Made by a program: the position numbers and the translations under genes. A stretch of 64,000 nucleotides of DNA. It comes from Nitrosospira sp. (GTDB taxonomy: Bacteria > Pseudomonadota > Gammaproteobacteria > Burkholderiales > Nitrosomonadaceae). Under the pieces are notes generated by a model that did not search any database, was not told where the DNA came from, and saw only the letters and a list, made by a program, of their open reading frames with translations. Every line of letters begins with the position of its first letter. Within the stretch, counting starts at the first letter, position 1. The stretch covers positions 1 to 64,000 of the forward strand of contig JAPLQS010000028.1 in assembly GCA_026399575.1 (NCBI GenBank). The letters run 5' to 3'. Below are positions 33,193 through 46,769 of the stretch, in pieces.

Positions 33193-33455
33193 GGCAGCAG
33201 TCGGTGCGTAGTGATCAACGGTGCATTTTAACCTAAATCCGCTGGCTGAACGGAGCGAGCTTATGCCGGATGGCAGGCTAGGGGGGCTTCGAGGTGCAGG
33301 GGTGGAGCGCATTTCATGTCTGCACCTACTGGAAAGTTTTGTTATTTTTACTAAACTGAATTGAGCATATTTCAATCTGCTGGGGTGACCGTTCAACCTG
33401 CAACCTTGTCAGAAGCTCTTTCCCAGTTACCACGACCACTATAGAGGAGCAATAA

Positions 33456-34043
33456 ATGGCAGCTCATATCGAAAGTAAAGACATCAAGGCTCTCCCTGTC
33501 CTCCCGTATTCAGATTTGCGCGCAAAGCTGAAGTCCGGAGATATTCTCTTCACCTCGGGGGACTACCTGGTTTCCAAGGCAATCCAGAAAGTAACCGACA
33601 GTCCGTGGAGTCATGTCGGTATTGTGTTTCGTCTCGATTCGATCGATCGGATGTTGTTATTGGAAAGCGTCGAAGACATGGGGGTACGTTTTGCTCCTTT
33701 GTCGAAATACCTCAATGACTACGAAGACGGCAAACCCTACAAGGGGCGAGCGGTTCTTGCGCGGTGTAAAGATGTCACATCCGCGACTGTTGCAAGCCTC
33801 TCCACCTTTGGCATTGACGAACTGACCCAGCCTTACGACAAAGACGAAGTCGCCAAGATATTGGCGCGGATTACCCTTGGCATAGGCAAGAAAGAACGGG
33901 ACCGCGAATACATCTGCTCCGAGCTTGTCTATGAGTGCTTTTCACATGCAGGAAAGGAGTTTGCTTACAATCCCAAAGGCTTTATCAGCCCGGAGGATGT
34001 TTGGGCAGATGAGAAACTTTCTCTTGTTGGACGCGTTTTATAG
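33456..34043 (+). CDS. C92/YiiX-type permuted papain-fold hydrolase
   Basis: A 195-residue protein of the YiiX/YebB-like NlpC/P60 group with circularly permuted papain fold. The conserved early His lies in DSPWSHVGIVFRLD and the catalytic Cys comes late, in EYICSELVYECFSHAG. The family is found in amidases, peptidases and lipid acyl hydrolases. No signal peptide is visible, so the substrate may be intracellular. A clear GAGGAG precedes ATG 33456. It is the first gene of the accessory region and is followed by a copy of the dispersed repeat. Confidence 0.82.
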   Translation: MAAHIESKDIKALPVLPYSDLRAKLKSGDILFTSGDYLVSKAIQKVTDSPWSHVGIVFRLDSIDRMLLLESVEDMGVRFAPLSKYLNDYEDGKPYKGRAVLARCKDVTSATVASLSTFGIDELTQPYDKDEVAKILARITLGIGKKERDREYICSELVYECFSHAGKEFAYNPKGFISPEDVWADEKLSLVGRVL

Positions 34044-34054
34044 CATAGCTGTTC

Positions 34055-34159
34055 ATTCGAATGGACACCGTTTCGCGGCTGCGGTTGCTGGAAAATTGCG
34101 ATACACTGCCTGCATCACAATTTTCTCGGGGTGCTGTTTATTTGTGTCCCCGTTTGGCA
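34055..34159 (+). repeat. Dispersed repeat, partial copy (attC-like right part)
   Basis: About 105 bp that align with the right two thirds of the 166 bp repeats at 41570 and 43388. Shared words are ATTCGA, GGACACC, TTCGCGGCTG, TACACTGCCTG, CAATTTTCTCGGGGTGC and CCCCGTT. The left palindrome arm is missing. The end box reads GTTTGGC. The next gene starts 23 bp later, the same layout as after the copy at 41570. Confidence 0.75.
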
Positions 34160-34182
34160 TTCACTCAGGGGGGAAGTAACAC

Positions 34183-34839
34183 ATGGAATTCTTTGTTTTC
34201 CGGTTGAACAAGCTCAAGATTCTCGACAATAGGGAATGGGGGCCAGGCGAACTCAAGATGTTGAGTTTTGTAACGGGCAAGGATGTCAACCTCCCCGCTT
34301 TGGATGATCTCCAGCGTACGACAGATCCAGCGATAAAGAAGCAGTTCATCCAAGAGGCTGCTCAATCCGTTCTTAGCGCGAAGACTCTCATGCAACTTGA
34401 TAATGTTACGGACGATGCCGAGATTACCTTTGGTGATACAGGCTATGCCTTGTATACGGCAGATCAGATACCAGTCTCGTTCAACTGGTCTTTGATGATC
34501 TTCGAGATGGATGAAGACATCAACGCTTTGGGGCGAAAGATTGACGAGATCATCAAGGCGCCGGAGTTCGATGGATTCACACAGAACGTGTTAACTCTGG
34601 TTTCCGCAGCGGCGAACCCGGCCGAAGTTGCCGGGGTGGCTATTGCAAAGTACATTTTCGAACACATAGCAGAAGCGATGATAGAGGATAAAGATGATCA
34701 GGTCGGGCTGGCCTATCAATCGTTCAACCGGTTTGAGCACTACCCCAAGGGGAAGAGAAAGAAGAATGACGTGCCCGATCTGAGCAACAACGTGCGTATC
34801 GACTATTCGATATTCGGCACTCAATACCAGGATTCCTGA
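34183..34839 (+). CDS. Unknown conserved-looking protein (218 aa)
   Basis: I do not recognise a named family. The protein has no signal peptide or clear membrane helix. The N-terminus alternates strands (EFFVFRLNKLKILDN), and a middle segment (PVSFNWSLMIFEMDED) and a C-terminal block (RFEHYPKGKRKKNDVPDLS, VRIDYSIFG) look like a beta-sandwich with a basic loop. An Ala-rich helix (VSAAANPAEVAGVAIAKYIF) may bind a membrane or partner. GGGGGAAG lies 8 bases before the ATG. It follows the C92 hydrolase in the same direction with only the repeat between. Confidence 0.7.
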   Translation: MEFFVFRLNKLKILDNREWGPGELKMLSFVTGKDVNLPALDDLQRTTDPAIKKQFIQEAAQSVLSAKTLMQLDNVTDDAEITFGDTGYALYTADQIPVSFNWSLMIFEMDEDINALGRKIDEIIKAPEFDGFTQNVLTLVSAAANPAEVAGVAIAKYIFEHIAEAMIEDKDDQVGLAYQSFNRFEHYPKGKRKKNDVPDLSNNVRIDYSIFGTQYQDS

Positions 34840-35336
34840 TGAGTTTAACCAAGCCATGAGGTATGTTGGCGAGTGGTGAAGAATGAGCAGTTTACGCGTT
34901 TGTTCTGCTGCAGCTACTTGTAGGCCGGTGACCTATCGGTCGGTAGCCTGATTTCGTCATGTTACGACAGGCTTCTTCTGGTACAACTAAAACCTTCAGC
35001 ACATGATCTGAGTCTGAAGATCAAGATATGAAGAGTGACAGGGACGGGATTCACAGCTGGCAGATTTTTTTGGGCAGCAAGGGTGTGCGGGGGAAATCGC
35101 GAAAACTGGTTATTCTTCACCAAGCGCCGCCACTTTTCATGCTTAGGGGAATTAGCTATGCGCACGAGTTAAGGCGAAGCGGTGGATTTGGAGGAATGTG
35201 CCTGATTCAGAGTTATGGTCAGTTGAAGCAATGGATCTAGCATGGCTTGCAGCTCATTTACGGGGGGATTATCCGGGTCTTGTCCGTTGTACGGGTACTA
35301 TGAATAAGCGATGAGTTACAGTGGTTTTTTCCAGCC
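34840..35336. other. Intergenic region before the di-heme genes
   Basis: About 500 bp with no gene I can support. A 70-codon plus frame (35028-35240) has no family resemblance. An imperfect inverted repeat around ACCTATCGGTCGGT (34931-34944) could be an operator. The promoter of the di-heme/P450 cluster should lie here, but I see no strong consensus. Confidence 0.4.
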
Positions 35337-37445
35337 ATGATGCCGTGCAAGGGAAGTGCTGTGGTAACCAGGAAAGCAAAAATTGCAAAATGCAGTTTGG
35401 GATGGGCTGTTATATTTTTGCTGGCCTTCCTGGCATTGGCGACAGTTTGGATAACCATCGGTGTATTCTCCCGAATGTATGAATTCCGGGACGATGATGC
35501 CGATCGTGGCGCTGCTACGGTCGAAATAAACAAGTTCGGCGACAGCTTTTCCAAGACGGCATATCTGGCTCAGGGCTGGTCAGAGTCAGACAGTCTATGG
35601 TTCTACAGCACCACACAGGGCTCCAACTTGCTACCCTATGGTTTTTTCTTGGTGCTGGAGCAGGCGGATTCCCAAGTCGTGTTCCGTAGCAATGAAAACA
35701 TTAACCGCTATGGTTATCTGCCACAAAACCCCACCATCAGTAACCCGGATGGCCTGCCCGTAGGAATGGTGCGTGACGAGTACCAGGGCAAGCAATTCAT
35801 GGGCTTTACCTGCGCCGCATGCCATACCACCCAGATCAACTACGGGGATGTCGGTATCCGTGTCGACGGTGGCCCGGCTAATTCGGATATGGAAACCTTC
35901 ATGGTCGATTTAGCAAAAGCCATGCATGCCACCTTAGACGATCCGGAAAAACGCAGCCGCTTTGTTGCCAATGCGCTGAAACAAGGTAGTTACGACAACG
36001 CTAAAGATGTGCTGGCCGACTTGGGGAAATACGCGCAACGTATCAAGACCTATACTATCGTTAACGCCCCCCGGGATACAAAACGGCCGTTAACTCACTA
36101 TGGTTATGCGCGGCTGGACGCGTTCGGACGCATCTATAACCGAGTGCTCGAGCACATTATGAGCGCGCAACAACTGCGTGAATTGCTGGCCGAGACCCTT
36201 TCTCCGGAAGCGCTGGCCGAGGTCATGGCAGGGGTGGAGCCGGTGCTGAGCAGCAATGATCGCGACCACATTATCGAGCGTATCCAAGAGTACCTGACCG
36301 GCAAACAGATCATCGAACTGCGCAATAAAATCTACAACCCGGCCGATGCGCCGGTAAGTTATCCCTTCCTGTGGGATATCCCACAGCATGACTATGTGCA
36401 ATGGAATGGAAGAGTCGACAACAGTGGTATCGGCCCAATGGCTCGCAATGCCGGCCAAGTCATAGGCGTATTTGGTACGCTGGACTGGCAGGAAAAGAAC
36501 GGCATAACCCTGTCCTCGGTCTTGGGTGGCCAAGGCTTTGGTGACAAGCATATCGACTTCCAATCCTCGATCAATATTCGCAATTTGCGCCGGGTGGAAA
36601 AGCAATTACGCAAGTTGACATCACCGCTTTGGCCGGAACATATCCTGCCCAGGATCGATAACACCCGGCTGACCAATGGCGCAGAACTGTTCACCCGTTA
36701 CTGCGCATCGTGCCACGATAGGATTGATCGCACGAGCCTCGACCGTCGCGTGGTAGCCAAGATGATCGCGGTCTCGTCGATAGAAACCGACTCCAAGACA
36801 GCTGCAAACAGCGCGCAATTTGCCGGTTACAGCGGCATTCTGCGAAACCAGTATGTCAGTGTCGGTGTGGGCGATATCTTGTTGCAACGTCAGGCACCCG
36901 TGGTTGCACTGCTCACGTCCGCCACCCGCAACGTGGTCACCACACCCGATAAAGACAAGTGGTTTATACAGCGTTGGGCCGAGCGGCTACTTGATTTTGC
37001 GCATACGTTTTTTGACAATGAAGTTCAGTCCTCGCTCAAACGCGGCGACTATACCCCGGATACCACGACCAACCCCTTTGCCTCGCTAATGGCTTACAAA
37101 GCCCGCCCCCTTAATGGCATCTGGGCAACCGCACCGTATCTGCATAATGGTTCCGTGCCAACGCTGTATGACGTGCTACTGCCAAAGAGACAAGCTGATG
37201 ACCCGGCGGATGGCGAGTACCGGCCGGACGAATTCATGGTCGGTTCGCGTGAGTTCGATCCGGTGAAGGTTGGCCTAAAATCGGCGGGTTACGACGGCTT
37301 CCTGTTCCGTACCAGCATTTGGGGCAACTACAATAGTGGCCACGAGTATGCTTCTGGCCGCACCCCACAATCGGACGGAACGATGCTGCCGGCCTTGACC
37401 AAGGAGCAGCGTATGGATTTGCTCGAATACCTTAAATCCTTATAG
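35337..37445 (+). CDS. Membrane-anchored di-heme c cytochrome, RoxA/OdsA-like oxygenase family
   Basis: A 702-residue protein with one N-terminal membrane anchor (WAVIFLLAFLALATVWITIG) and a periplasmic part with two c-heme sites, CAACH at residue 159 and CASCH at 456. Size, heme spacing and blocks such as WFYSTTQGSNLLPY and YPFLWDIPQHDYVQWNG fit the large di-heme family that holds rubber oxygenase RoxA and the tandem fatty-acid dioxygenase/diol synthase of Pseudomonas aeruginosa, rather than short CcpA/MauG peroxidases. A GTG at 35361 behind GGGAAG is an alternative start. A roughly 60% identical paralogue follows. The substrate is unknown. Confidence 0.8.
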   Translation: MMPCKGSAVVTRKAKIAKCSLGWAVIFLLAFLALATVWITIGVFSRMYEFRDDDADRGAATVEINKFGDSFSKTAYLAQGWSESDSLWFYSTTQGSNLLPYGFFLVLEQADSQVVFRSNENINRYGYLPQNPTISNPDGLPVGMVRDEYQGKQFMGFTCAACHTTQINYGDVGIRVDGGPANSDMETFMVDLAKAMHATLDDPEKRSRFVANALKQGSYDNAKDVLADLGKYAQRIKTYTIVNAPRDTKRPLTHYGYARLDAFGRIYNRVLEHIMSAQQLRELLAETLSPEALAEVMAGVEPVLSSNDRDHIIERIQEYLTGKQIIELRNKIYNPADAPVSYPFLWDIPQHDYVQWNGRVDNSGIGPMARNAGQVIGVFGTLDWQEKNGITLSSVLGGQGFGDKHIDFQSSINIRNLRRVEKQLRKLTSPLWPEHILPRIDNTRLTNGAELFTRYCASCHDRIDRTSLDRRVVAKMIAVSSIETDSKTAANSAQFAGYSGILRNQYVSVGVGDILLQRQAPVVALLTSATRNVVTTPDKDKWFIQRWAERLLDFAHTFFDNEVQSSLKRGDYTPDTTTNPFASLMAYKARPLNGIWATAPYLHNGSVPTLYDVLLPKRQADDPADGEYRPDEFMVGSREFDPVKVGLKSAGYDGFLFRTSIWGNYNSGHEYASGRTPQSDGTMLPALTKEQRMDLLEYLKSL

Positions 37446-37792
37446 TCATACAAGGAAGGAATCATGATCAGCCATTGGGAATTTTGCTGCTTCATGACTG
37501 GCTATGACTGGCTATGATTTAATATGATTTAATCGATATAGTGCCAGGAAGGTGTCAGAGTGCATTATTTGCTCAATTCTTTCCAACACAAGTGATCAAG
37601 ATTTGAAGCGTCAACATGTCATCCGGTAGAATTCGTATCCGTATTACCAACTTTATATTGATTAAACTTCCAAATAATGTTGCTGTTTCATTCGGCTTCG
37701 TATAAACATAAATTATCGGCCTAGCCGGGTATTTGACCGGAGTCGTCGATAGCACTATTCCCGGAAACTTTATTTTGCCTTAGGGAGGCATC
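37446..37792. other. Gap between the paralogous cytochromes with 10 bp tandem repeats
   Basis: A 347 bp gap without a gene. At 37494-37533 lie four consecutive 10 bp units, ATGACTGGCT twice then ATGATTTAAT twice. The rest is A+T-rich compared with the flanks and probably carries a separate promoter for the second cytochrome. AGGGAGG (37783-37789) is the ribosome binding site for the next gene. Confidence 0.6.
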
Positions 37793-39850
37793 GTGAAACA
37801 ATCTTCTGTAACGTCAATAAGACGGCATCCATTGTTTATTCCTGCTTTGCTTCTTATCAGCATGGTCCTGCCTGCCTGCGCGACGCTCTCGGATGACGAC
37901 CCTGAGCGTGGTGCAACTACCGTCAAACAGGATATTTTTGGCGACAGCTTCACGACGATAAAGTACCTTGATCAAGGCTGGAGCCCTGCCGACAGTTCGT
38001 GGTTTTACACCACCACTCAGGGATCAAATATGATGCCGTACGATTTCTTCCTGGAGTTGGAACAAGTCGGCAAATCCGAATTGTTTCGCGCTTACGAGAA
38101 TATGAATCGCTATCGTTATTTGCCGCAGAAAGCCAGCTTCAATAACCCGGATGCATTGCCGGTTGGCTGGGTAAAGGATGACTACAAGGGGAAAAATTAT
38201 GTCGGTTTGACCTGTGCTGCTTGTCACACCGGGCAGATAAATTACCGAGGTACTGGCATACGGATCGATGGCGGGCCGGCGAGTGCGGATATGGAAACCT
38301 TGATGATAGATATCGTTCATGCCATGCAGTCGACTATGAGCGACGAAGTTGTTCGAACTCGGTTTGTCAAGAATGTATTGGCACGTGGCAATTACGTCGC
38401 AGAAACTGAGGTACTCAATGACCTTAAAAAATATCATCGACGCCTCGAGACATACATCATAGTCAATCATAGCAAGACCAAATATGGCTATGCGCGGCTG
38501 GACGCGTTTGGGCGTATCTATAACCGGGTTCTTGAGCACATCATAAACGAGAGGGAGCTGAGGGAATTATTGCGTGACCACAAGATAATGCGCGATGACG
38601 GAATGACGGAAGAAGAGCTGAATTCAATTCTGCAAGATGCGGATAAAGTCCTCAGCAGCGAGCAGCGTGACCACATCGTCGAACGCCTTTCCAAAGTTCT
38701 GACCAAATGGCAACTCGGACGGTTGCGAAAAGAGCTGTTTAATCCACCCGACGCGCCAGTTAGCTATCCCTTTCTGTGGGATATCCCGCAGCACGATTAT
38801 GTGCAATGGAATGGCATAGCAGCCAATGCTGGACTGGGCCCGGTTGGGCGTAATACGGGGGAAGTGATTGGAGTGTTCGGTACACTTGACTGGGCAGAAG
38901 CAGAAAGAGCCACGCTGTCCACGCTTATTGGCGGGCAGGCCTCGGGAAACACTCGTGTAAGTTTCGATTCCTCCGTTAATGTGCACAACCTGCGCCGTAT
39001 CGAATCACGCCTTCGGGGGCTGCAGTCTCCGCAATGGCCGGAAGAAGTTCTCGGAGTTATTGACAAGAGCAGCGCTTTGCGTGGAGAGCGTTTATTCAAT
39101 CGCTATTGCGAAAGTTGCCATGTAGAAATTGACCGTACTGCGGCTGATCGCCGTGTCGTAGCGCACATGTCGAGGGTCAGCGATGTCGGTACCGATCCCA
39201 AGATGGCTGCTAACAGTTTCAGATATCAAGGCTTGTCTGGTATTTTGCGGAATCAGTATGTGGGCGTTGGCGTGGGTGATATTCTGCTCAATCGGCAGGC
39301 CCCAGTCGCAGCGCTGCTGACCAAAGCGACCTTGAACGTGGTTGCCACTCCCGATCCAGACAAATGGTTTCTGCGCCGTTGGACCGACTGGATTAGTGAT
39401 CTGGCCTCCGCGTTTTTTCATAATGAGATCAAACCTTCAATCAAGCATGGAAATTATGATCCAGACACTACGGCCAATCCGCTCTCTTCGCTGAATTCCT
39501 ACAAGGCGCGATCATTGAACGGTGTCTGGGCGACTGCACCCTATTTACACAATGGCTCCGTGCCAACGCTCTACGATTTGCTGTTGCCAAAAAAACGTCC
39601 GGGTGATCCGCAAGACGGTGAATACCGTCCAGACAAATTTGAAGTTGGATCTCGCGAATTCGACCCAATCAGAGTGGGCCTAAGAAGCAGCGAATATGAA
39701 GGTTTTACTTTCGACACCAGTTTTCCGGGTAATAGCAATGCCGGGCACGAGTATGCATCCGGACACACTGCGCAGACTGCTGGCGAAATTCTGCCGGCGC
39801 TGACCAAAGAACAACGCCTGGATTTGCTGGAATATTTGAAGACTCTATAA
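37793..39850 (+). CDS. Di-heme c cytochrome lipoprotein, RoxA/OdsA-like oxygenase family
   Basis: A 685-residue paralogue of the preceding gene. Its N-terminus is a lipoprotein signal with lipobox VLPAC, so it should be anchored by lipid instead of a helix. Heme sites are CAACH at residue 141 and CESCH at 439. The same core blocks occur (WFYTTTQGSNMMPY, YPFLWDIPQHDYVQWNG, ATAPYLHNGSVPTLYD). The start is GTG with AGGGAGG upstream. Two differently anchored paralogues in tandem recall the two-enzyme dioxygenase/diol synthase pair in Pseudomonas. P450 follows 50 bp downstream. Confidence 0.8.
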   Translation: MKQSSVTSIRRHPLFIPALLLISMVLPACATLSDDDPERGATTVKQDIFGDSFTTIKYLDQGWSPADSSWFYTTTQGSNMMPYDFFLELEQVGKSELFRAYENMNRYRYLPQKASFNNPDALPVGWVKDDYKGKNYVGLTCAACHTGQINYRGTGIRIDGGPASADMETLMIDIVHAMQSTMSDEVVRTRFVKNVLARGNYVAETEVLNDLKKYHRRLETYIIVNHSKTKYGYARLDAFGRIYNRVLEHIINERELRELLRDHKIMRDDGMTEEELNSILQDADKVLSSEQRDHIVERLSKVLTKWQLGRLRKELFNPPDAPVSYPFLWDIPQHDYVQWNGIAANAGLGPVGRNTGEVIGVFGTLDWAEAERATLSTLIGGQASGNTRVSFDSSVNVHNLRRIESRLRGLQSPQWPEEVLGVIDKSSALRGERLFNRYCESCHVEIDRTAADRRVVAHMSRVSDVGTDPKMAANSFRYQGLSGILRNQYVGVGVGDILLNRQAPVAALLTKATLNVVATPDPDKWFLRRWTDWISDLASAFFHNEIKPSIKHGNYDPDTTANPLSSLNSYKARSLNGVWATAPYLHNGSVPTLYDLLLPKKRPGDPQDGEYRPDKFEVGSREFDPIRVGLRSSEYEGFTFDTSFPGNSNAGHEYASGHTAQTAGEILPALTKEQRLDLLEYLKTL

Positions 39851-39900
39851 TCCGAATCAATCGTAATCAACGATATCTGTCATATACAAAGGGGCCACCG

Positions 39901-41184
39901 ATGAGTGCAAGCACAAGCCATTACCTGGAACAATATGACGCAGCTGCTGATGTAGACAAGTTTCCAATGGTGCGTCGTTGGATTGATACAGAGCCGCTGC
40001 CATTGTTCAAGGAACTACGTGAGAAACGGCCCATACTGGTGACTCCGCAATGTACTCTGCTCACTCGCTTTGACGATGTCAGGGAGGTGCTGAGCATGCC
40101 CAAAGTGTTCACGGTTGCCCCTTATGTCCCGAAAATGGGCGATTACATGATGGCGCATGATGATGACCCCCTGCACACCCGCGAGAAATCGCTGATGCAG
40201 TGCATGTTGAACCGTGATGATCTTCCGGCAGTGCGCGCCTTGGTGGCGGATATTGCCAAGGAAATACTCGATGCCGCCAATGGCCATATTGATGTGGTCA
40301 ATGAATACTGCCGCATGGTGCCGGCGACACTGGTGCGAAAATACTTCGGGCTTACCGGCGCGAAACGGCGTGACTTGATCGAGTGGTCTTACTGGAACCA
40401 GTACGATACCTTTCACAACCAGCCCTTCGATTTATTGCCGCCAGAAAAATCCAAATATGTGATTGATCGCCATAACGAAACTTCCAAACAGCTCGGGAAA
40501 TTCATACTCGAACTCATCGCCCGCCGTTTTCTGGAAGTGAAGGCAGAAGAAATAACGCTATCGACTCTGGTGCGACTGGACGACGATATCGTCACGAGAA
40601 TGTTACGCACAGATTACCCAAAACAGCTTGATTTCGACATCAAGCGCTTGGGAATTAATGCAGGCGGTTTGTTGATTGGCGCAATTGAAACCACCTCACA
40701 GGCAGTTGCACAGGTACTCCAGTATCTGCTTGAACGTCCGGAATGGCTTATCAGGGCAAAAAGTGCTGCACAGCAGGACGCGCCCACTGAATTCGATGGC
40801 ATCGTGTGGGAGGCCTTGCGCTTTGTGCCGATTACTCCCTATCTGTTTCGTACAACTGCCAGTGATTACACTGCTGCCAAAGGCACAGATCATGAAACCG
40901 TCCTCCGTGCAGGTACCTATGTCTTGCCAGTGACCTTGTCAGCGACGTTCGATGAACGGGCATTTGAATCTCCGGATGAATTTATTCCACAACGCAACTG
41001 GTACAACTATTTCCATTTTGGTTTCGGCAGTCATGAATGCCTGGGACGTTACGTGGGCATGGTGATGATTCCGGAGATGGTGCGCCAAGTATTGATCCGG
41101 CCGGAGATACAGGCCAGAAGTAGCATTGACTACAAAGCGGGACCTTTCCCGGAACAATACGATCTATTCTGGAGCACGCTGTAG
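39901..41184 (+). CDS. Cytochrome P450
   Basis: A 427-residue soluble P450. The heme-thiolate motif is FHFGFGSHECLG with the ligand Cys at about residue 380, the I-helix motif is IGAIETTSQA, and the K-helix ExxR is WEALR. AAAGGGG precedes the ATG. The gene follows the two di-heme cytochromes in the same direction, so all three may act on one lipophilic substrate. No ferredoxin or reductase gene is adjacent, so electrons come from elsewhere or it uses peroxide, for example a hydroperoxide made by the di-heme proteins (inference). Confidence 0.93.
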   Translation: MSASTSHYLEQYDAAADVDKFPMVRRWIDTEPLPLFKELREKRPILVTPQCTLLTRFDDVREVLSMPKVFTVAPYVPKMGDYMMAHDDDPLHTREKSLMQCMLNRDDLPAVRALVADIAKEILDAANGHIDVVNEYCRMVPATLVRKYFGLTGAKRRDLIEWSYWNQYDTFHNQPFDLLPPEKSKYVIDRHNETSKQLGKFILELIARRFLEVKAEEITLSTLVRLDDDIVTRMLRTDYPKQLDFDIKRLGINAGGLLIGAIETTSQAVAQVLQYLLERPEWLIRAKSAAQQDAPTEFDGIVWEALRFVPITPYLFRTTASDYTAAKGTDHETVLRAGTYVLPVTLSATFDERAFESPDEFIPQRNWYNYFHFGFGSHECLGRYVGMVMIPEMVRQVLIRPEIQARSSIDYKAGPFPEQYDLFWSTL

Positions 41185-41328
41185 GGTATGAGGTTGCAAT
41201 AAATCAACTCATAAACATATCGATAAATTAATTGGTGACTTACATTGAAAAACAGGATTGCTGCTTTCTGAAGACGGTGATTCCAGACAGAAAGGCTACC
41301 AGGCGCTACTTATTGAGGAGTGACCCAG

Positions 41329-41514
41329 ATGAAAAAACTTGATGCGTTTGAGAAAGGTATCTTGGCAGCTTATGAAAAAGGCAAGTTTAAATCCACCTCT
41401 CCTTCAAAAGCAGAATTGGCGAAATTCAAGGCCGCTGCTACAGCCACCTTCCTCAAGGAAAAACGGATCAACATCCGCCTTGCTACGCCAAATTTGTGGC
41501 TGGGCATCTTGTAA
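41329..41514 (+). pseudogene. Truncated CopG-type antitoxin
   Basis: The 61-residue product matches the N-terminal half of CopG-type antitoxins of type II toxin-antitoxin systems: KKLDAFEKGILAAYEKGKFK, then FKAAATATFLKEKRINIRLA. Family members continue with a GIPYQTLI helix and run to about 90-100 residues. Here the frame ends just after TPNLWLGIL, so the C-terminal half of the DNA-binding and dimer region is missing. GAGGAG lies 8 bases before ATG 41329. No toxin gene is adjacent. It ends 55 bp before an attC-like repeat, a placement seen for antitoxins in integron cassettes. Confidence 0.7.
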
Positions 41515-41569
41515 GCCACCGTCCAGTCTATTTCTCGTTCAAGCGGGATGCACCGGAAGCGCCGCACCG

Positions 41570-41735
41570 ACCTAACAGGGTTGCGAATTGACGAATTCGG
41601 GGAGCGGCGCGCAGCGCCGACTATTCCCTCATTCGAGCGGACACCGCTTCGCAGTTGCGTCCGCTCGAAAATCTCAATGCAATGCTCGCATCTCAATTTT
41701 CTCGGTGTACCGCTCAATTCGCGTCCCCGTTAGGC
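41570..41735 (+). repeat. 166 bp palindromic attC-like repeat, copy 1
   Basis: The site begins ACCTAAC (fits RYYYAAC) and ends GTTAGGC (fits GTTRRRY). Inside, the arms continue to pair: GGG..GCGAATTGA near the left end with TCAATTCGC..CCC near the right end. A perfect 10 bp stem TCGAGCGGAC (41633-41642) / GTCCGCTCGA (41659-41668) lies in the middle. The upstream word CGTTCAAGCGGGATGC resembles flanks of known gene-cassette sites. The preceding gene ends 55 bp before and the next starts 29 bp after. A copy of the same length lies at 43388. Confidence 0.75.
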
Positions 41736-41764
41736 GGCCAGCGAAAATAGGATAGGGATTGAAT

Positions 41765-42790
41765 ATGGATGATCTAAGGTTTCTTCCGTTCTATGAGCGA
41801 CTGATTATACGATTCCCAGGGTACCTTATTGGGAAGATCTTGGTTTCCACACTTCTTGGACTCGCATTTCTAGTGAGTCATTACGTGAGTATCGGAAATA
41901 AAGTCTTCGAGGACTGGAGTTGGTTCCTTAGTGTCTTGATCACCACCGCCATGCTCTGTCTCTATTACGCAACCCATACTCTACGGACTCTGCTTCCTGA
42001 AATGGATGTGCGTTTACGCCCTGATGGCAATGAAGTCTATATGGCCACACTAAGGCGCATCCTTTCGGATCGTCATTTTGTTCTAGCAGGATTCTTCTTT
42101 GGCTTATTGAACTGTGGGGTTGGGTATTCCTTCGGGCTCCCCTACTCCAAAGGGCTCGCAGTCGTTACAATTTTGAGTGGATATTTTCTTGCCGGATTTG
42201 TGTGCGGCATGGCAGTTTTTGGGATCTACGGCATCTCCGTTTTGATCAGCGCGTTCTCTCGGAAGGCAAAACACTCCTTCGACTTCACATCACCGGATCG
42301 TTGTGGGGGAACACTGTTTCTGGGCGAAGCGCTCATCATATTCAGTTCGGTTACGCTAATCGTTGGGGTCATGATCTCAGTTTATATACTGAAAACCCCT
42401 TGGGAAGGGGATGACACGGGGTGGATTAGGGCGCTCAAATATTTATGGATAGTATTTCCCTATGTGATGTCTCTGGTCGCCTTGATCGCCCCTGTGGTTC
42501 CAATTAATAATGAACTAAGGCAGTACAAGATGGAACAAGAAGCCATGCTCCAAGATCGTTTGACTGAAATTTGCAAATGCCTTGAAAAAAATAAACTCGA
42601 TGCGGCTGAACGGAGGGATTTGCGTGAAGACTATGAATTTCAACAGAGTATCCGAAAGTATCTCCATGGAATGCGAACATGGCCCTATGGCGTGGGCGAG
42701 AATCTAAAATACCTCGCAGTTTTTGTTGCCAATTTATTCGCAACGGTGGATAGTGCTTCATCGTGGATGAGTAAGATTTCCATTTCGTAG
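41765..42790 (+). CDS. Unknown polytopic membrane protein
   Basis: A 341-residue membrane protein that I cannot assign to a family. Hydrophobic helices lie at about residues 22-42, 50-70, 100-122, 130-155, 186-208 and 224-246. A charged, coiled-coil-like cytoplasmic segment follows (YKMEQEAMLQDRLTEICKCL), and one more hydrophobic stretch near the C-terminus. ATG 41765 has AGGATAGGG upstream. It lies between two attC-like sites (41570-41735 and 42823-42885), the exact layout of a gene cassette. Confidence 0.75.
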   Translation: MDDLRFLPFYERLIIRFPGYLIGKILVSTLLGLAFLVSHYVSIGNKVFEDWSWFLSVLITTAMLCLYYATHTLRTLLPEMDVRLRPDGNEVYMATLRRILSDRHFVLAGFFFGLLNCGVGYSFGLPYSKGLAVVTILSGYFLAGFVCGMAVFGIYGISVLISAFSRKAKHSFDFTSPDRCGGTLFLGEALIIFSSVTLIVGVMISVYILKTPWEGDDTGWIRALKYLWIVFPYVMSLVALIAPVVPINNELRQYKMEQEAMLQDRLTEICKCLEKNKLDAAERRDLREDYEFQQSIRKYLHGMRTWPYGVGENLKYLAVFVANLFATVDSASSWMSKISIS

Positions 42791-42822
42791 AGTAGCCGTT
42801 GCGCAAGGCACGGTTAGAAGGC

Positions 42823-42885
42823 GCCTAACCACATGCTGCACCGGACCGCCGACAAGCGACGGTCAGTGAGCTTCGCCGTTTAGGC
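42823..42885 (+). repeat. 63 bp attC-like site
   Basis: Starts GCCTAAC and ends GTTTAGGC, which pair with one bulged base. An inner pair (GCACCGGACC with GGTCAGTGAGC) is imperfect, as in attC sites. It starts 33 bp after the stop of the membrane-protein gene. Its sequence differs from the 166 bp repeats, as expected for unrelated cassettes. The last T insertion weakens the match to the GTTRRRY box. Confidence 0.55.
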
Positions 42886-42886
42886 C

Positions 42887-42965
42887 GTAGAAAAACCCCT
42901 GATGAAAGATCGGGGCTGCAATGAACAAGAACTGGTTTGCTCGACCCCTCAAGGGGTTTTTCTAC
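42887..42965. mobile_element. 79 bp miniature inverted-repeat element
   Basis: GTAGAAAAACCCCT (42887-42900) and its exact reverse complement (42952-42965) bound 79 bp. If the target duplication is TA, the inner repeat is GAAAAACCCCT, which would fit an IS630/Tc1-type MITE; this is inference. Each end also forms a GC hairpin followed by TTTTT reading outward, so it can stop transcription from both sides. It lies between the 63 bp attC-like site and the DUF3024 pseudogene. Confidence 0.6.
42944..42962 (+). terminator. Rho-independent terminator in the miniature element
   Basis: ACCCC (42944-42948) and GGGGT (42953-42957) pair around TCAA, followed by TTTTTC. The mirror-image structure at the left end acts on the minus strand. 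Confidence 0.6.
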
Positions 42966-42987
42966 AGCATCGTTATGTGGCAAGAGC

Positions 42988-43335
42988 ATGGCGTTGAACG
43001 ACGTTGAGCAGAAGCGAATCGAGAAAGCAGTCGGTGCATTAGTCGAGAAGCGCCGGCCACCCCCACATATTCGCCCCAAGCTCGATTTGGGTTTCGCGTC
43101 TCAGGCCAGAGCGTTGAGCTGCTCGAGATTCGTCCGCAGTGGGATCGGCCGGAGATAAAGCGTGAGAACTCTTTCGCCAAAGCTGCCATTGTCCGGACTC
43201 AAGGGTTGTGGAAGGTGTACTGGAAGCGCGCCGATTTGAAGTGGCACAGCTACGAACCCGCACTGGAAGTTGCGGCTAGCGAAGAATTTCTGGCCGTAGT
43301 GCAACAGGACGAGTATGGCTGTTATCTTCGGGTAG
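42988..43335 (+). pseudogene. DUF3024 protein gene with two compensating frameshifts
   Basis: Frame 1 from ATG 42988 reads MALNDVEQKRIEKAVGALVE and PPPHIRPKLDLGF, the DUF3024 N-terminus. At about 43095 one base is missing and the protein continues in another frame (LLEIRPQWDRPEIKRENSF, WKVYWKRADLKWHSYEP, EEFLAVVQQDEYGC). At about 43324 one extra base removes the expected FFG-stop; without it TAG at 43333-43335 would end the protein. Apart from these two changes the reading is intact, so inactivation is recent or due to assembly errors. The shifted frame continues to 43409. DUF3024 function is unknown. Confidence 0.75.
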
Positions 43336-43387
43336 GCTTGCCACATAGCTTGGCGTCCCACTCGGACGCGCCGGAAGCGCCGCGCCG

Positions 43388-43553
43388 ACCTAGCGAGATC
43401 GTGACTTGACGAATTCGGGGAACGGCATACAGCGTTGCTTATTCTCGCATTCGAACGGGCACCACTTCGCGGCTGTACCTACTCGTAAATTCCGTTACAC
43501 TGCCTATATCTCAATTTTCTCGGGGTGCCGCTCAACTCGCGACCCCGTTAACC
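43388..43553 (+). repeat. 166 bp palindromic attC-like repeat, copy 2
   Basis: Aligns end to end with the repeat at 41570-41735 and has the same length. It begins ACCTAGC and ends GTTAACC, so both boxes have drifted from consensus. The left arm GATCGTGACTTGA still pairs with the right arm TCAACTCGCGACC. The shared core is TTCGCGGCTG, TACACTGCCT and CAATTTTCTCGGGGTGCCG. It lies 52 bp after the ancestral stop of the DUF3024 gene. Confidence 0.72.
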
Positions 43554-43720
43554 AATGGGGCTGCCGGGAGGTGTCGCCGTTCTAATTTTTTCTGGATATA
43601 GTCACCGCAGAAAATAAATCCATTTGGGAGGAGTTCAATAGATGATGAAGATCAATTACTCCCTTACGATGACCGATTTGTAGAGTGATGCAGACCACCC
43701 ATCATACAAGGAATGAGAGA
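43554..43720 (+). other. Leader of the KAP NTPase gene with a 13-codon frame
   Basis: After the repeat, GGGAGGAG (43628-43635) lies at the right distance before ATG 43641, which opens a 13-codon frame (MMKINYSLTMTDL) ending TAG 43682, 38 bp before the NTPase ATG. It could be a leader peptide or the remains of another gene. Confidence 0.35.
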
Positions 43721-45241
43721 ATGAACGATGTTACTGACAACTGGAATCCAGATGACAAGCTCGACCGAAAAGAATCTGCCGATTTTCTGACCAACTACCT
43801 CATCAAACGCTATGGACTTGCCTCTAAACACCAACACCCAGATACATTTGTATTAAACATCAGGGCAGACTGGGGTTTCGGAAAAACTTTTTTCCTTCAG
43901 CGGTGGGCAGGAGACTTGAGGAAAGCAGGTTTCCCGGTTGTATTCTTCAACGCTTGGGAAAATGATTTCAGCGACGACCCGCTGATTGGATTCATTGCGG
44001 AAATAAATGATGGACTATCTGGGCACTTCAAGAGCAAGAAAATTTTGTTACACCTTGATGAGGCCATTGCGATAGGGCGAAAACTTATCAAGCCGGTTAG
44101 CCTTGGAGTTACCGCCATGTTAGTAAAGCAACTGTCTGGTCTTAGCCTAGAAAAGCTACAAGAATCCTACTCACAGGGCAGCGAAAGCGGGGCTGCTGAC
44201 AGCAGTGAGGGTAAAAGCAAATCCGAAAGTGATATATCTTCTTTGCTTTCGAAATACGCCGATATCGCGCTCAAGGAACACCTGAATAAAAGAGAAACGA
44301 TAAAACTCTTCAAAGATAAGTTGAGTCGTCTGATCACGACTCTGCAGAGTGAGGAAAAACACATTAAGCTTCCACTGTTCATTTTCATTGACGAACTGGA
44401 CAGATGCAGACCGACCTATGCCATCGAACTTCTGGAAGCCGTAAAGCACCTTTTTGGTGTGCCTGGAGTCTACTTCGTCGTCGCCACTAATCTTGAGCAG
44501 CTCGGACACTCAATCCGCGCTGTGTATGGCGAACAGTTTGACTCTGAGCGTTATCTGAAGCGATTTTTCGATCAGGAGTACCTGTTGCCATCGCCCGATA
44601 ACACCCGTTTCACCGCATTCCTGTTTGAACGGTATGCATTGAATGATTTCGGTACTTTCTACACGGTCATAGAAGATAAGATATATGACCCTACGCCATC
44701 CGATCAGGCGCTGTTTACGATTTTATGTGATGGTTTCAAGCTGGGGCTTAGGGATCAAGAGCAGGTAGTTGGAGCACTCCAAGCAGTTCTACTGAATTGG
44801 CCGACGGGTGAGCGTATTCACCTTGCCTACCTGTTGTTCCTTATCATCGCCAAACAGATTTCACCTTTTCTTTTTCAGCAACTCGCGGACAAACAACTGG
44901 TTGATTCATCAAAATTCAGTGGAGCTCTCTCAACAAAATTGCGCGAGAACGTCAAATTCAAAACCCGTGATCTTGTCAGCAAAGAAAGGGGTTATGAAGT
45001 GATAGAGCGTAATGTTTTGGATATGCTTTTGACGTATCAAAACCTACAAGGTCGGACAGTTAAGAATCTCTGGGAACAAAACTACAACAGCATCGCATTC
45101 CCTGGCAAAATTGGGAGCGCTGTTAGCCAAGACTGTTCCCGTACCATTCCACAGGGAGAGAACTCTATGCCACCAATTTCCGATTACGCCCGCCGGGTTA
45201 GCCAAGCAGGGCAACTAAGCAACGTAATGCAGAAAACTTAA
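43721..45241 (+). CDS. KAP-family P-loop NTPase
   Basis: A 506-residue KAP NTPase. Walker A is ADWGFGKTFF (Lys about residue 55) and Walker B is FIFIDELDRCRPTYAIELLE (near 222), with the sensor VVATN after it. A moderately hydrophobic stretch (VSLGVTAMLVKQLSGLSL) between them sits where many KAP proteins insert membrane helices. The C-terminal 200 residues are helical and unassigned. ATG 43721 has AAGGAATGAG upstream; the frame is open 12 codons more. Family members such as PifA of plasmid F exclude phage, so a defence role is possible but not shown. Confidence 0.88.
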   Translation: MNDVTDNWNPDDKLDRKESADFLTNYLIKRYGLASKHQHPDTFVLNIRADWGFGKTFFLQRWAGDLRKAGFPVVFFNAWENDFSDDPLIGFIAEINDGLSGHFKSKKILLHLDEAIAIGRKLIKPVSLGVTAMLVKQLSGLSLEKLQESYSQGSESGAADSSEGKSKSESDISSLLSKYADIALKEHLNKRETIKLFKDKLSRLITTLQSEEKHIKLPLFIFIDELDRCRPTYAIELLEAVKHLFGVPGVYFVVATNLEQLGHSIRAVYGEQFDSERYLKRFFDQEYLLPSPDNTRFTAFLFERYALNDFGTFYTVIEDKIYDPTPSDQALFTILCDGFKLGLRDQEQVVGALQAVLLNWPTGERIHLAYLLFLIIAKQISPFLFQQLADKQLVDSSKFSGALSTKLRENVKFKTRDLVSKERGYEVIERNVLDMLLTYQNLQGRTVKNLWEQNYNSIAFPGKIGSAVSQDCSRTIPQGENSMPPISDYARRVSQAGQLSNVMQKT

Positions 45242-45272
45242 TGAGACTTGACATGAGTCCCTGCTTTGGCAC

Positions 45273-45345
45273 TTTGCGTGGCTGCATTCGTGCGAGAATT
45301 TCGCTACACTGCGTGCTTTCTGGTTTGTTCGGGGCGATCCCGGCC
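45273..45345 (+). repeat. Diverged partial copy of the dispersed repeat
   Basis: About 73 bp after the KAP gene resemble the repeat core: TTGCGTGGCTGCATTCG, CGAGAATTTCG, TACACTGC and TTCGGGG in the same order and spacing as at 43468-43530. Both palindrome arms are lost. It marks the right end of the accessory region; sdaA starts 45 bp later. Confidence 0.5.
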
Positions 45346-45389
45346 CTGCCAATCATCTTTCATGCGGCATCACACTACGGGAATATCCA

Positions 45390-46769
45390 ATGTTCATCAG
45401 TGTTCTTGAGCTTTTCAAAATCGGCATCGGTCCTTCGAGTTCGCACACCATGGGACCGATGGTGGCGGCCAGTGATTTTCGCAACCGCATCCAGACGTTC
45501 GTTGCAACCCATACGGTCAATTCGGATCTTCATATTCGCTGCACCTTGAAAGGTTCGCTGGCTTTTACCGGCAAGGGCCACGCGGCCGATCGCGCCGTGG
45601 CATTGGGGCTGCACGGCTATTCGCCGGAAGGTCTGGCCGACCAGCCGGTGAGCGAGCTGACAGAGCGCCTGTGGCACAGTCATTCCATCACGCTGAGTGC
45701 AGCACTGTCGGCCAGATTCTATGCGGCTGAAGATGTGGTGTTCGATCGCGGCAAGCCGCTGCCGCAACATCCGAATGGCATGATCTTCGAATTGCTCGAT
45801 TCGAGTGGCAAAGCGATCCTGACGGAAACCTATTTTTCAATCGGCGGCGGTTTCGTCAATACGCTTGCCGAAATCAGCACGCTGGATGCGCCGCTCAAAA
45901 TGGAATCTGCCAGCTCGTGCCCTTATCCATTCGATTCGGCGGACGCCATGGTGCAGATGGCGGACGCCAGCGGCTTGTCCATCGCGGCGATAAAGCGCTT
46001 GAACGAACATACCAAGATGGCCGATGCCGCACTCGACAAGGGGCTGGATGCGATCTGGCGGGCGATGCAGGTTTGTCTCGAGAAGGGACTGGCGGTCGAA
46101 GGCATCCTGCCCGGAAGCCTCAAGCTGCCACGACGCGCGAAGGCTTTGTTCAAACAGTTGCAGGATGCGCCTGCAGAAGCCAACCTGAATGACTGGCTGT
46201 GCGCCTATGCCATGGCGGTGAATGAGGAAAATGCCGCCGGTCATATGGTGGTGACCGCCCCCACCAATGGTGCGGCAGGGGTGATCCCCGCGGTTCTGTA
46301 TTACCTCGTGCATCATGAAGGCGGTACTCTGGAACAGGTGCGGGAATTCCTGCTCACTGCTGCTGCAGTTGGCGGCATCATCAAGCATAGAAGTTCGATT
46401 TCCGGCGCGGAGGTGGGATGCCAGGGCGAAGTCGGTTCCGCCGCTGCCATGGCAGCAGCCGGCTTATGCGCGGTGCGCGGCGGCAGCCCGCAACAGATCG
46501 AGAATGCTGCGGAAATCGCGCTGGAGCATCACCTCGGCATGACTTGCGACCCGGTGGGAGGTCTGGTGCAGGTTCCGTGTATTGAACGTAACGGCTTTGG
46601 CGCCATCAAGGCGTTCACCGCCGCTTCACTCGCGAAGCGCGGGAGCGGGATACACTTCATGCCGCTGGATGGGTGCATTGCCGCAATGAAGCAGACCGGG
46701 CTGGAGATGTCGGTAAAATACAAGGAAACCTCTTTGGGTGGTTTGGCGGTCAGCATTACCGAGTGTTGA
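45390..46769 (+). CDS. sdaA: L-serine ammonia-lyase
   Basis: A 459-residue iron-sulfur L-serine dehydratase making pyruvate and ammonia. It starts VLELFKIGIGPSSSHTMGPM, the substrate-binding signature of the beta domain. The alpha domain carries VTAPTNGAAGVIPAVLYY and Cys ligands of the 4Fe-4S cluster in EVGCQGEVGSA, GMTCDPVGG and VPCIERN. Alpha and beta domains are fused, as in E. coli SdaA. Confidence 0.96.
   Translation: MFISVLELFKIGIGPSSSHTMGPMVAASDFRNRIQTFVATHTVNSDLHIRCTLKGSLAFTGKGHAADRAVALGLHGYSPEGLADQPVSELTERLWHSHSITLSAALSARFYAAEDVVFDRGKPLPQHPNGMIFELLDSSGKAILTETYFSIGGGFVNTLAEISTLDAPLKMESASSCPYPFDSADAMVQMADASGLSIAAIKRLNEHTKMADAALDKGLDAIWRAMQVCLEKGLAVEGILPGSLKLPRRAKALFKQLQDAPAEANLNDWLCAYAMAVNEENAAGHMVVTAPTNGAAGVIPAVLYYLVHHEGGTLEQVREFLLTAAAVGGIIKHRSSISGAEVGCQGEVGSAAAMAAAGLCAVRGGSPQQIENAAEIALEHHLGMTCDPVGGLVQVPCIERNGFGAIKAFTAASLAKRGSGIHFMPLDGCIAAMKQTGLEMSVKYKETSLGGLAVSITEC

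Follow-up and report, generated by a model that had tools for sequence, protein, structure and literature searches.

A probable, slightly decayed attC site behind an orphan membrane-type protein gene in a Nitrosospira chromosome

Upstream of a serine-dehydratase gene in the draft genome of a Nitrosospira sp. (2.09 Mb in 93 contigs, 95% complete), an orphan gene for a membrane-type protein is followed by a short, imperfect inverted repeat, which raises the question of whether the chromosome holds an integron cassette here or merely a gene that happens to end on a palindrome. The DNA analysed, which we call the window, is positions 1-64000 of contig C60. An earlier note, made from the sequence alone, had proposed that a 63-bp stretch with the ends GCCTAAC and GTTTAGGC is a second type of attC site; this stretch is present at 42823-42885, and its inner pairing is imperfect, as noted, yet has the geometry of an attC, with spacers of 5 and 6 nt and a bulged L''. 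We are highly confident that it is the attC of an integron cassette with one gene, which the chromosome acquired ahead of the serine-dehydratase gene and which survives there as a remnant in slight decay. The element is most likely one more case of a familiar type, carried on the chromosome of a Nitrosomonas-related bacterium.

In the bottom strand of an attC site R'' pairs with R' and L'' with L', and the unpaired spacer and the bulged bases are read by the integron integrase. The parts of the 63-bp stretch stand in the order found in attC sites, namely R'', spacer, L'', central hairpin, L', spacer and R' (Table 1), with pairing between L'' and L', an extrahelical base and unpaired spacers; the spacer lengths and the single-base bulge at the standard position in L'' are the same in attC arrays of relatives. 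Excerpts of two publications (PMC3053210, PMC12901181) give RYYYAAC and GTTRRRY as the consensus of R'' and R', respectively, and 57-141 bp as the range of attC lengths. The left box and the length of our site agree with these values. Its right box, GTTTAGGC, departs from GTTRRRY, which counts against the attC reading, and the extra T that it contains is unique among 13 aligned sites (this one and 12 hand-picked others of the genus). The site is therefore claimed as a decayed attC and not as an intact one, the extra T probably impairing it.

Table 1. Coordinates of the features at the locus, in positions of the window
Feature	Position	Strand	Remarks
166-bp repeat, copy B	41570..41735	+	right end GTTAGGC is the upstream boundary of the cassette
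Inferred gene cassette	41730..42878	+	starts behind the G of GTTAGGC (41729); last base is the G of R'
Orphan membrane-type protein gene, 341 aa	41765..42790	+	open reading frame, ATG at 41765, TAG stop
Probable attC site of the membrane-protein cassette	42823..42885	+	geometry and covariance model R1
R'' box	42823-42829		GCCTAAC
Spacer''	42830-42834		CACAT, 5 nt
L''	42835-42841		GCT[G]CAC, extra G at 42838
Centre	42842-42865		24 nt
L'	42866-42871		GTGAGC
Spacer'	42872-42877		TTCGCC, 6 nt
R' box	42878-42885		GTTTAGGC, one extra T
Hairpin element	42887..42965	.	perfect 13-bp arms 42887-42899 / 42953-42965; RNA fold z -4.18
GTTATGT, where the following (DUF3024) cassette likely starts	42972..42978	+	complement of G007 ACATAAC
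Frameshifted DUF3024-type gene	42988..43335	+	frames broken
ACATAGC, putative remnant R'' of the DUF3024 cassette's attC	43343..43349	+	left half only; compare G007 ACATAAC
166-bp repeat, copy D	43388..43553	+	no R1 match
KAP P-loop NTPase gene	43721..45241	+	KAP (Pfam); candidate defence family PDC-S20

In the circular form of a cassette, R'' pairs with an R' box whose remainder is supplied by the first six bases of that same cassette. Two core sites with boxes that are complementary in the circle, as expected of a gene cassette, delimit the region between repeat B and our site: the upstream boundary at 41729-41735 is complementary to R'' at 42823-42829 in 7/7 positions and, unlike the R' of the cassette's attC, is a correct GTTAGGC. 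Adjacent cassettes no more than 2,500 bases apart were compared in 10 array loci of relatives: the upstream R' and the cassette's own R'' were complementary in 7/7 positions in 54 of 70 cases and in at least six in 65 of 70, as against 7/7 in 366 of 4830 (7.6%) mismatched box pairs; GCCTAAC is a common box, so that the 7/7 complement gives support of about tenfold and not proof. The cassette holds a single gene with short flanks (35 nt on the 5' side, 32 nt on the 3' side), in the same orientation as the attC. The location behind the gene for the 341-residue protein, put forward in the earlier note, is thus upheld, with its distance of 33 bp corrected to 32 nt after the TAG stop.

To the right of the site, the segment 42879-42971, from the attC to the start of the next cassette, is unaccounted for and counts against the cassette reading; a distant-mode DNA search of plasmids with 42791-42972 returned nothing. 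Directly behind the attC this DNA carries a 79-bp hairpin, possibly a two-way terminator. As a repeated element of its own genome the hairpin was rejected, being present in a single copy (its only match is itself), and in the sibling genome G004 it has one 38-bp match of 84%, with no match to our covariance model R1 (see below) nearby. The DUF3024 region that follows is read as a second cassette at the locus, which would be half destroyed. Its gene has 69.6% DNA identity over 349 bp to a DUF3024 CDS of NZ_CP151407.1 (a distant-mode DNA search of phages with the region found nothing), the GTTATGT at 42972 is the exact complement of R'' ACATAAC in an attC behind a DUF3024-like gene end in sibling G007 (L056, 9408-9456), and the ACATAGC at 43343 is followed by repeat D where G007 has the right half of its attC.

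No intI gene (TIGR02249) scored above the cut-off in the draft genome (best 82.6 bits, cut-off 265), so that no complete integron, for which intI has to be present, was found there; at 95% completeness, this absence is likely but not certain. Siblings G003 and G007 do have intI above the TIGR02249 cut-off and G008 has a 78-aa fragment, while contig C55 of our genome shares 91.7% with the flank of the G007 intI, an agreement that stops about 90 bases before the gene, where the sequences part. These integrase genes in siblings, an attC of our genome with 95% identity over 59 bp to an attC next to the intI of G007, and R boxes that would pair 7/7 in circular form are what could be expected of an attC that is mobile today, through an integrase supplied in trans and either missed in the assembly or encoded by a relative. 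We nonetheless regard present-day mobility as unlikely, given the extra T in R', the failure of any intI to reach the cut-off, the decay of the neighbouring gene and the survival of only half of the neighbouring attC. We retain the decayed remnant, and its boundaries suggest how it may have arisen: a circular cassette with the membrane-protein gene would have joined at G^TT within GTTAGGC, the right end of repeat B, and later R' would have gained a T, or the DNA now at its right would have supplied one. No integrase gene having been detected in its genome, the cassette is now probably left without a means of moving, or is moved seldom and in trans only.

A different question is whether the 63 bp could be a chance imperfect inverted repeat behind a gene, or the ordinary hairpin of a 3' untranslated region. 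On both strands of the window, a geometry scanner that allows one extra base in R' (a rule added after the site had been seen) matched 42823-42885 and nothing else, and it had matches in 10 of 13 intI loci of relatives (L025-L034, none in L035-L037). It also gave one match each in L022, on contig C36 of our own genome, and in L057 of sibling G001, neither of which R1 supports, so that the scanner alone is no proof. When the window was dinucleotide-shuffled 60 times, the loose form of the scanner averaged 0.68 matches (maximum 4) and the strict form had none in any of the 60; in 3000 shuffles of the local 210 bp, on the + strand, the corresponding counts were 3 and 0.

Independent evidence comes from R1, a covariance model with 16 pairs that was built here from 34 attC sites, picked by hand for diversity among the scanner's matches in the ten intI-linked loci L025-L034 of relatives, four of the sites coming from L033, a locus with 32, and none from the window's genus; the sites aligned well. 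R1 matched 42823-42885 from end to end (model positions 1-70) with 26.1 bits and an E-value of 3.4e-4, such values being rough by the tool's own statement. The only other match in the window at E of 10 or less was a partial one in repeat B (14.2 bits, E 0.28), and the 39.3 kb that adjoin it on this contig (L038, L039) gave none at E up to 10. Control DNA, which comprised 77 of 80 loci of serine-dehydratase relatives (769,240 bases; the three closest relatives left out), contained three matches with a best score of 22.6 bits, two of them in one locus and possibly real attC sites.

Within its own genome the site fares less well, ranking tenth of the 12 R1 matches listed, with E 0.011 (150 of 626 first-look candidates scored), behind at least nine attC matches of 37.8-51.9 bits; its low score beside these counts against the attC reading. 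Folding of the bottom strand gave the 63 nt a z-score of -1.93, with 6 shuffles out of 200 as stable, and the 86 nt of 42810-42895 one of -1.34 (18 of 200), in comparison with -5.85 for one clean attC of a relative; by folding energy itself the site is only weakly unusual. The earlier note had proposed to judge the site by folding 42810-42895 and by covariance scoring, holding that a score below attC thresholds, together with homologues of the gene always in non-cassette contexts, would speak against it. The folding is weak, but the score of 26.1 bits with the model made here does not fall below the attC level. Altogether, 42823-42885 is credible as an attC, though a weak one, and its genome contains clear attC sites.

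Chance would account for the barely unusual folding energy and for an R' off consensus, and it gains some weight from the loose scanner, with about 0.7 matches per shuffled 64 kb besides those in real DNA that R1 leaves unsupported; we consider it quite improbable, since it would have to explain an end-to-end R1 match that no score in 769 kb of control DNA equals, a position directly behind a gene and boundary boxes that are complementary throughout. No T-run follows the hairpin, and a transcription terminator at 42823-42885 was rejected, the terminator-like scan listing none there. A dispersed palindromic element (REP or small inverted-repeat transposon) that lies behind the gene by chance would suit a palindromic site adjoined by the inverted-repeat element 42887-42965, but is very hard to credit when the 200 bp around the site match their own genome only once, at the site itself, and when the one-sided bulge and unpaired spacers, an asymmetry specific to attC, would be unexpected.

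The 341-aa product of the orphan gene has only a sub-threshold Pfam match, to DsbD_2, a single-sequence structure model is helical and of low confidence (pLDDT 45.7), and PADLOC reported nothing for it. Searches of 60 relatives, of plasmids, and of genome contigs and viral contigs (both reaching close relatives only) found no match, and 368 other genomes of the class yielded one marginal, partial match (E 8.8e-4) at a locus, L077, in which R1 found nothing at E up to 1. No homologue was found in any cassette, and this counts against the cassette reading.

The earlier note had regarded the 166-bp repeats as another type of attC, alongside which our site would lend the cassette reading separate support. 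R1 did not bear this out, and the repeats were rejected as attC sites: copy B, whose ends resemble R boxes and whose inner match lacks a bulge, gave only the partial match described above, copy D gave none, and the two R1 matches in seven loci with sibling copies both lie outside the repeats. The cassette reading is therefore supported by 42823-42885 and gains no parallel support from the long repeats, so that our site is its main evidence and not a supplement to them. The repeats have inverted ends (ACCTANC...GTTAGRY) and partly overlap the promoter-like region before the serine-dehydratase gene. Full or partial copies also occur at 34053-34158 and 45274-45390 of the window, at C36:329-378 in the same genome, and in G001, G003, G004, G007 and G008. 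In G004 an attC match of 33.9 bits (L058, 402-482) ends just before a repeat copy, and the boxes of this junction (L058, 402-500), GATAGGT and ACCTATC, are complementary, so that the repeat could be a cassette without a gene.

Comparison with sibling genomes places the cassette in a variable interval. The serine-dehydratase protein is 97% identical to that of a metagenome assembly of Nitrosovibrio sp. Nv4, 91% to that of an uncultured proteobacterium and 90% to that of a Nitrosomonadaceae bacterium, G001 being the nearest sibling by this measure (97%). G001 has a match to 41233-41496, then a copy resembling repeat B and directly after it the serine-dehydratase gene, with no insert; the insert is likewise missing from G003 and G008, where the repeat is incomplete. 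Before its serine-dehydratase gene G007 carries a DUF1003 gene and two more open frames, and G004 has other open frames behind a P450 gene, its serine-dehydratase gene lying on a second, unjoined contig, while the G002 contig ends too close to the locus for comparison. R1 matches occur in the interval in G007 (L056, 9408-9456, 26.0 bits) and G004 (L058, 402-482, 33.9 bits). Presence and absence among relatives, as expected of a gene cassette, is seen in the 341-aa gene, found in 0 of 60, and in the missing insert of G001, G003 and G008. In G005 and G006, a match to 33.1-33.24 kb of the window stands about 150 bases before a match to the serine-dehydratase region at 45341, a gap so short that the whole stretch of about 33.24-45.34 kb must vary in the genus, the cassette being one addition among several. 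The interval before the serine-dehydratase gene gains and loses genes across the genus. The variable stretch 33240-45340 includes an amidase-like gene, two RoxA-like cytochrome genes, a P450 gene and the cassettes, and the KAP NTPase gene lies in it between repeat D and the serine-dehydratase gene. A short open frame at 41329-41514, whose product we take to be antitoxin-like in appearance, seems to have been shortened by an internal deletion relative to G001, G003 and G008, and the window copy has no Pfam hit.

Among known systems, the site shares with attC sites (59-base elements) the order R''-L''-L'-R', the one-sided bulge and a size within 57-141 bp, and with those of integron cassettes the position behind one gene and the complementary boundary boxes across the cassette; it differs in the extra R' base, the low model score and a gene with no homologue found. 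The locus also resembles a CALIN (a cluster of attC sites without an integrase, as defined by IntegronFinder) in having attC-bearing remnants and no detected intI, but differs in having only one full attC by R1 and one half site, whereas IntegronFinder 2.0, according to excerpts describing its defaults, reports a CALIN from two attC sites on. Cassette insertion at attG, outside attI and attC, is reported in an excerpt of PMC12901181, citing Loot et al. 2024; the likeness here is that the attC matches of this genus are spread over the chromosome, and the end of the 166-bp repeat would be only a candidate target of such insertion.

At E up to 0.1, R1 had matches in seven of nine genomes of the genus, at least 67 in total, a count for which up to 150 first-look candidates were scored in each genome. 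The nine stronger matches in our own genome lie on six contigs (C10, C17, C20, C31, C49 and C52). When sites within 4 kb are grouped, the matches listed form seven groups in our genome and 1-13 in six others; some groups are at contig ends and could be one broken array, and on contig C45 of G007 groups lie about 29 kb apart. It is conceivable, though we hold it only tentatively and think it doubtful, that cassettes of the genus are scattered over many chromosomal places outside any integron and that the 166-bp repeat, with its CCCCGTTAGRY end, is a recurrent landing site that makes the region before the serine-dehydratase gene a cassette hotspot.

Integrons are known in Nitrosomonas. No description of this locus turned up among the publications found on integrons, cassettes and attC sites in Nitrosomonadaceae and Nitrosomonas, which is no proof of absence. 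In our locus, a lineage close to Nitrosovibrio and Nitrosomonas has an integron cassette that carries the gene of an orphan membrane protein. On its own, 42823-42885 is ordinary; of greater interest are the dispersal of cassettes and the 166-bp repeats. The scattered attC groups make cassette insertion outside integrons testable, by comparing empty with filled sites.
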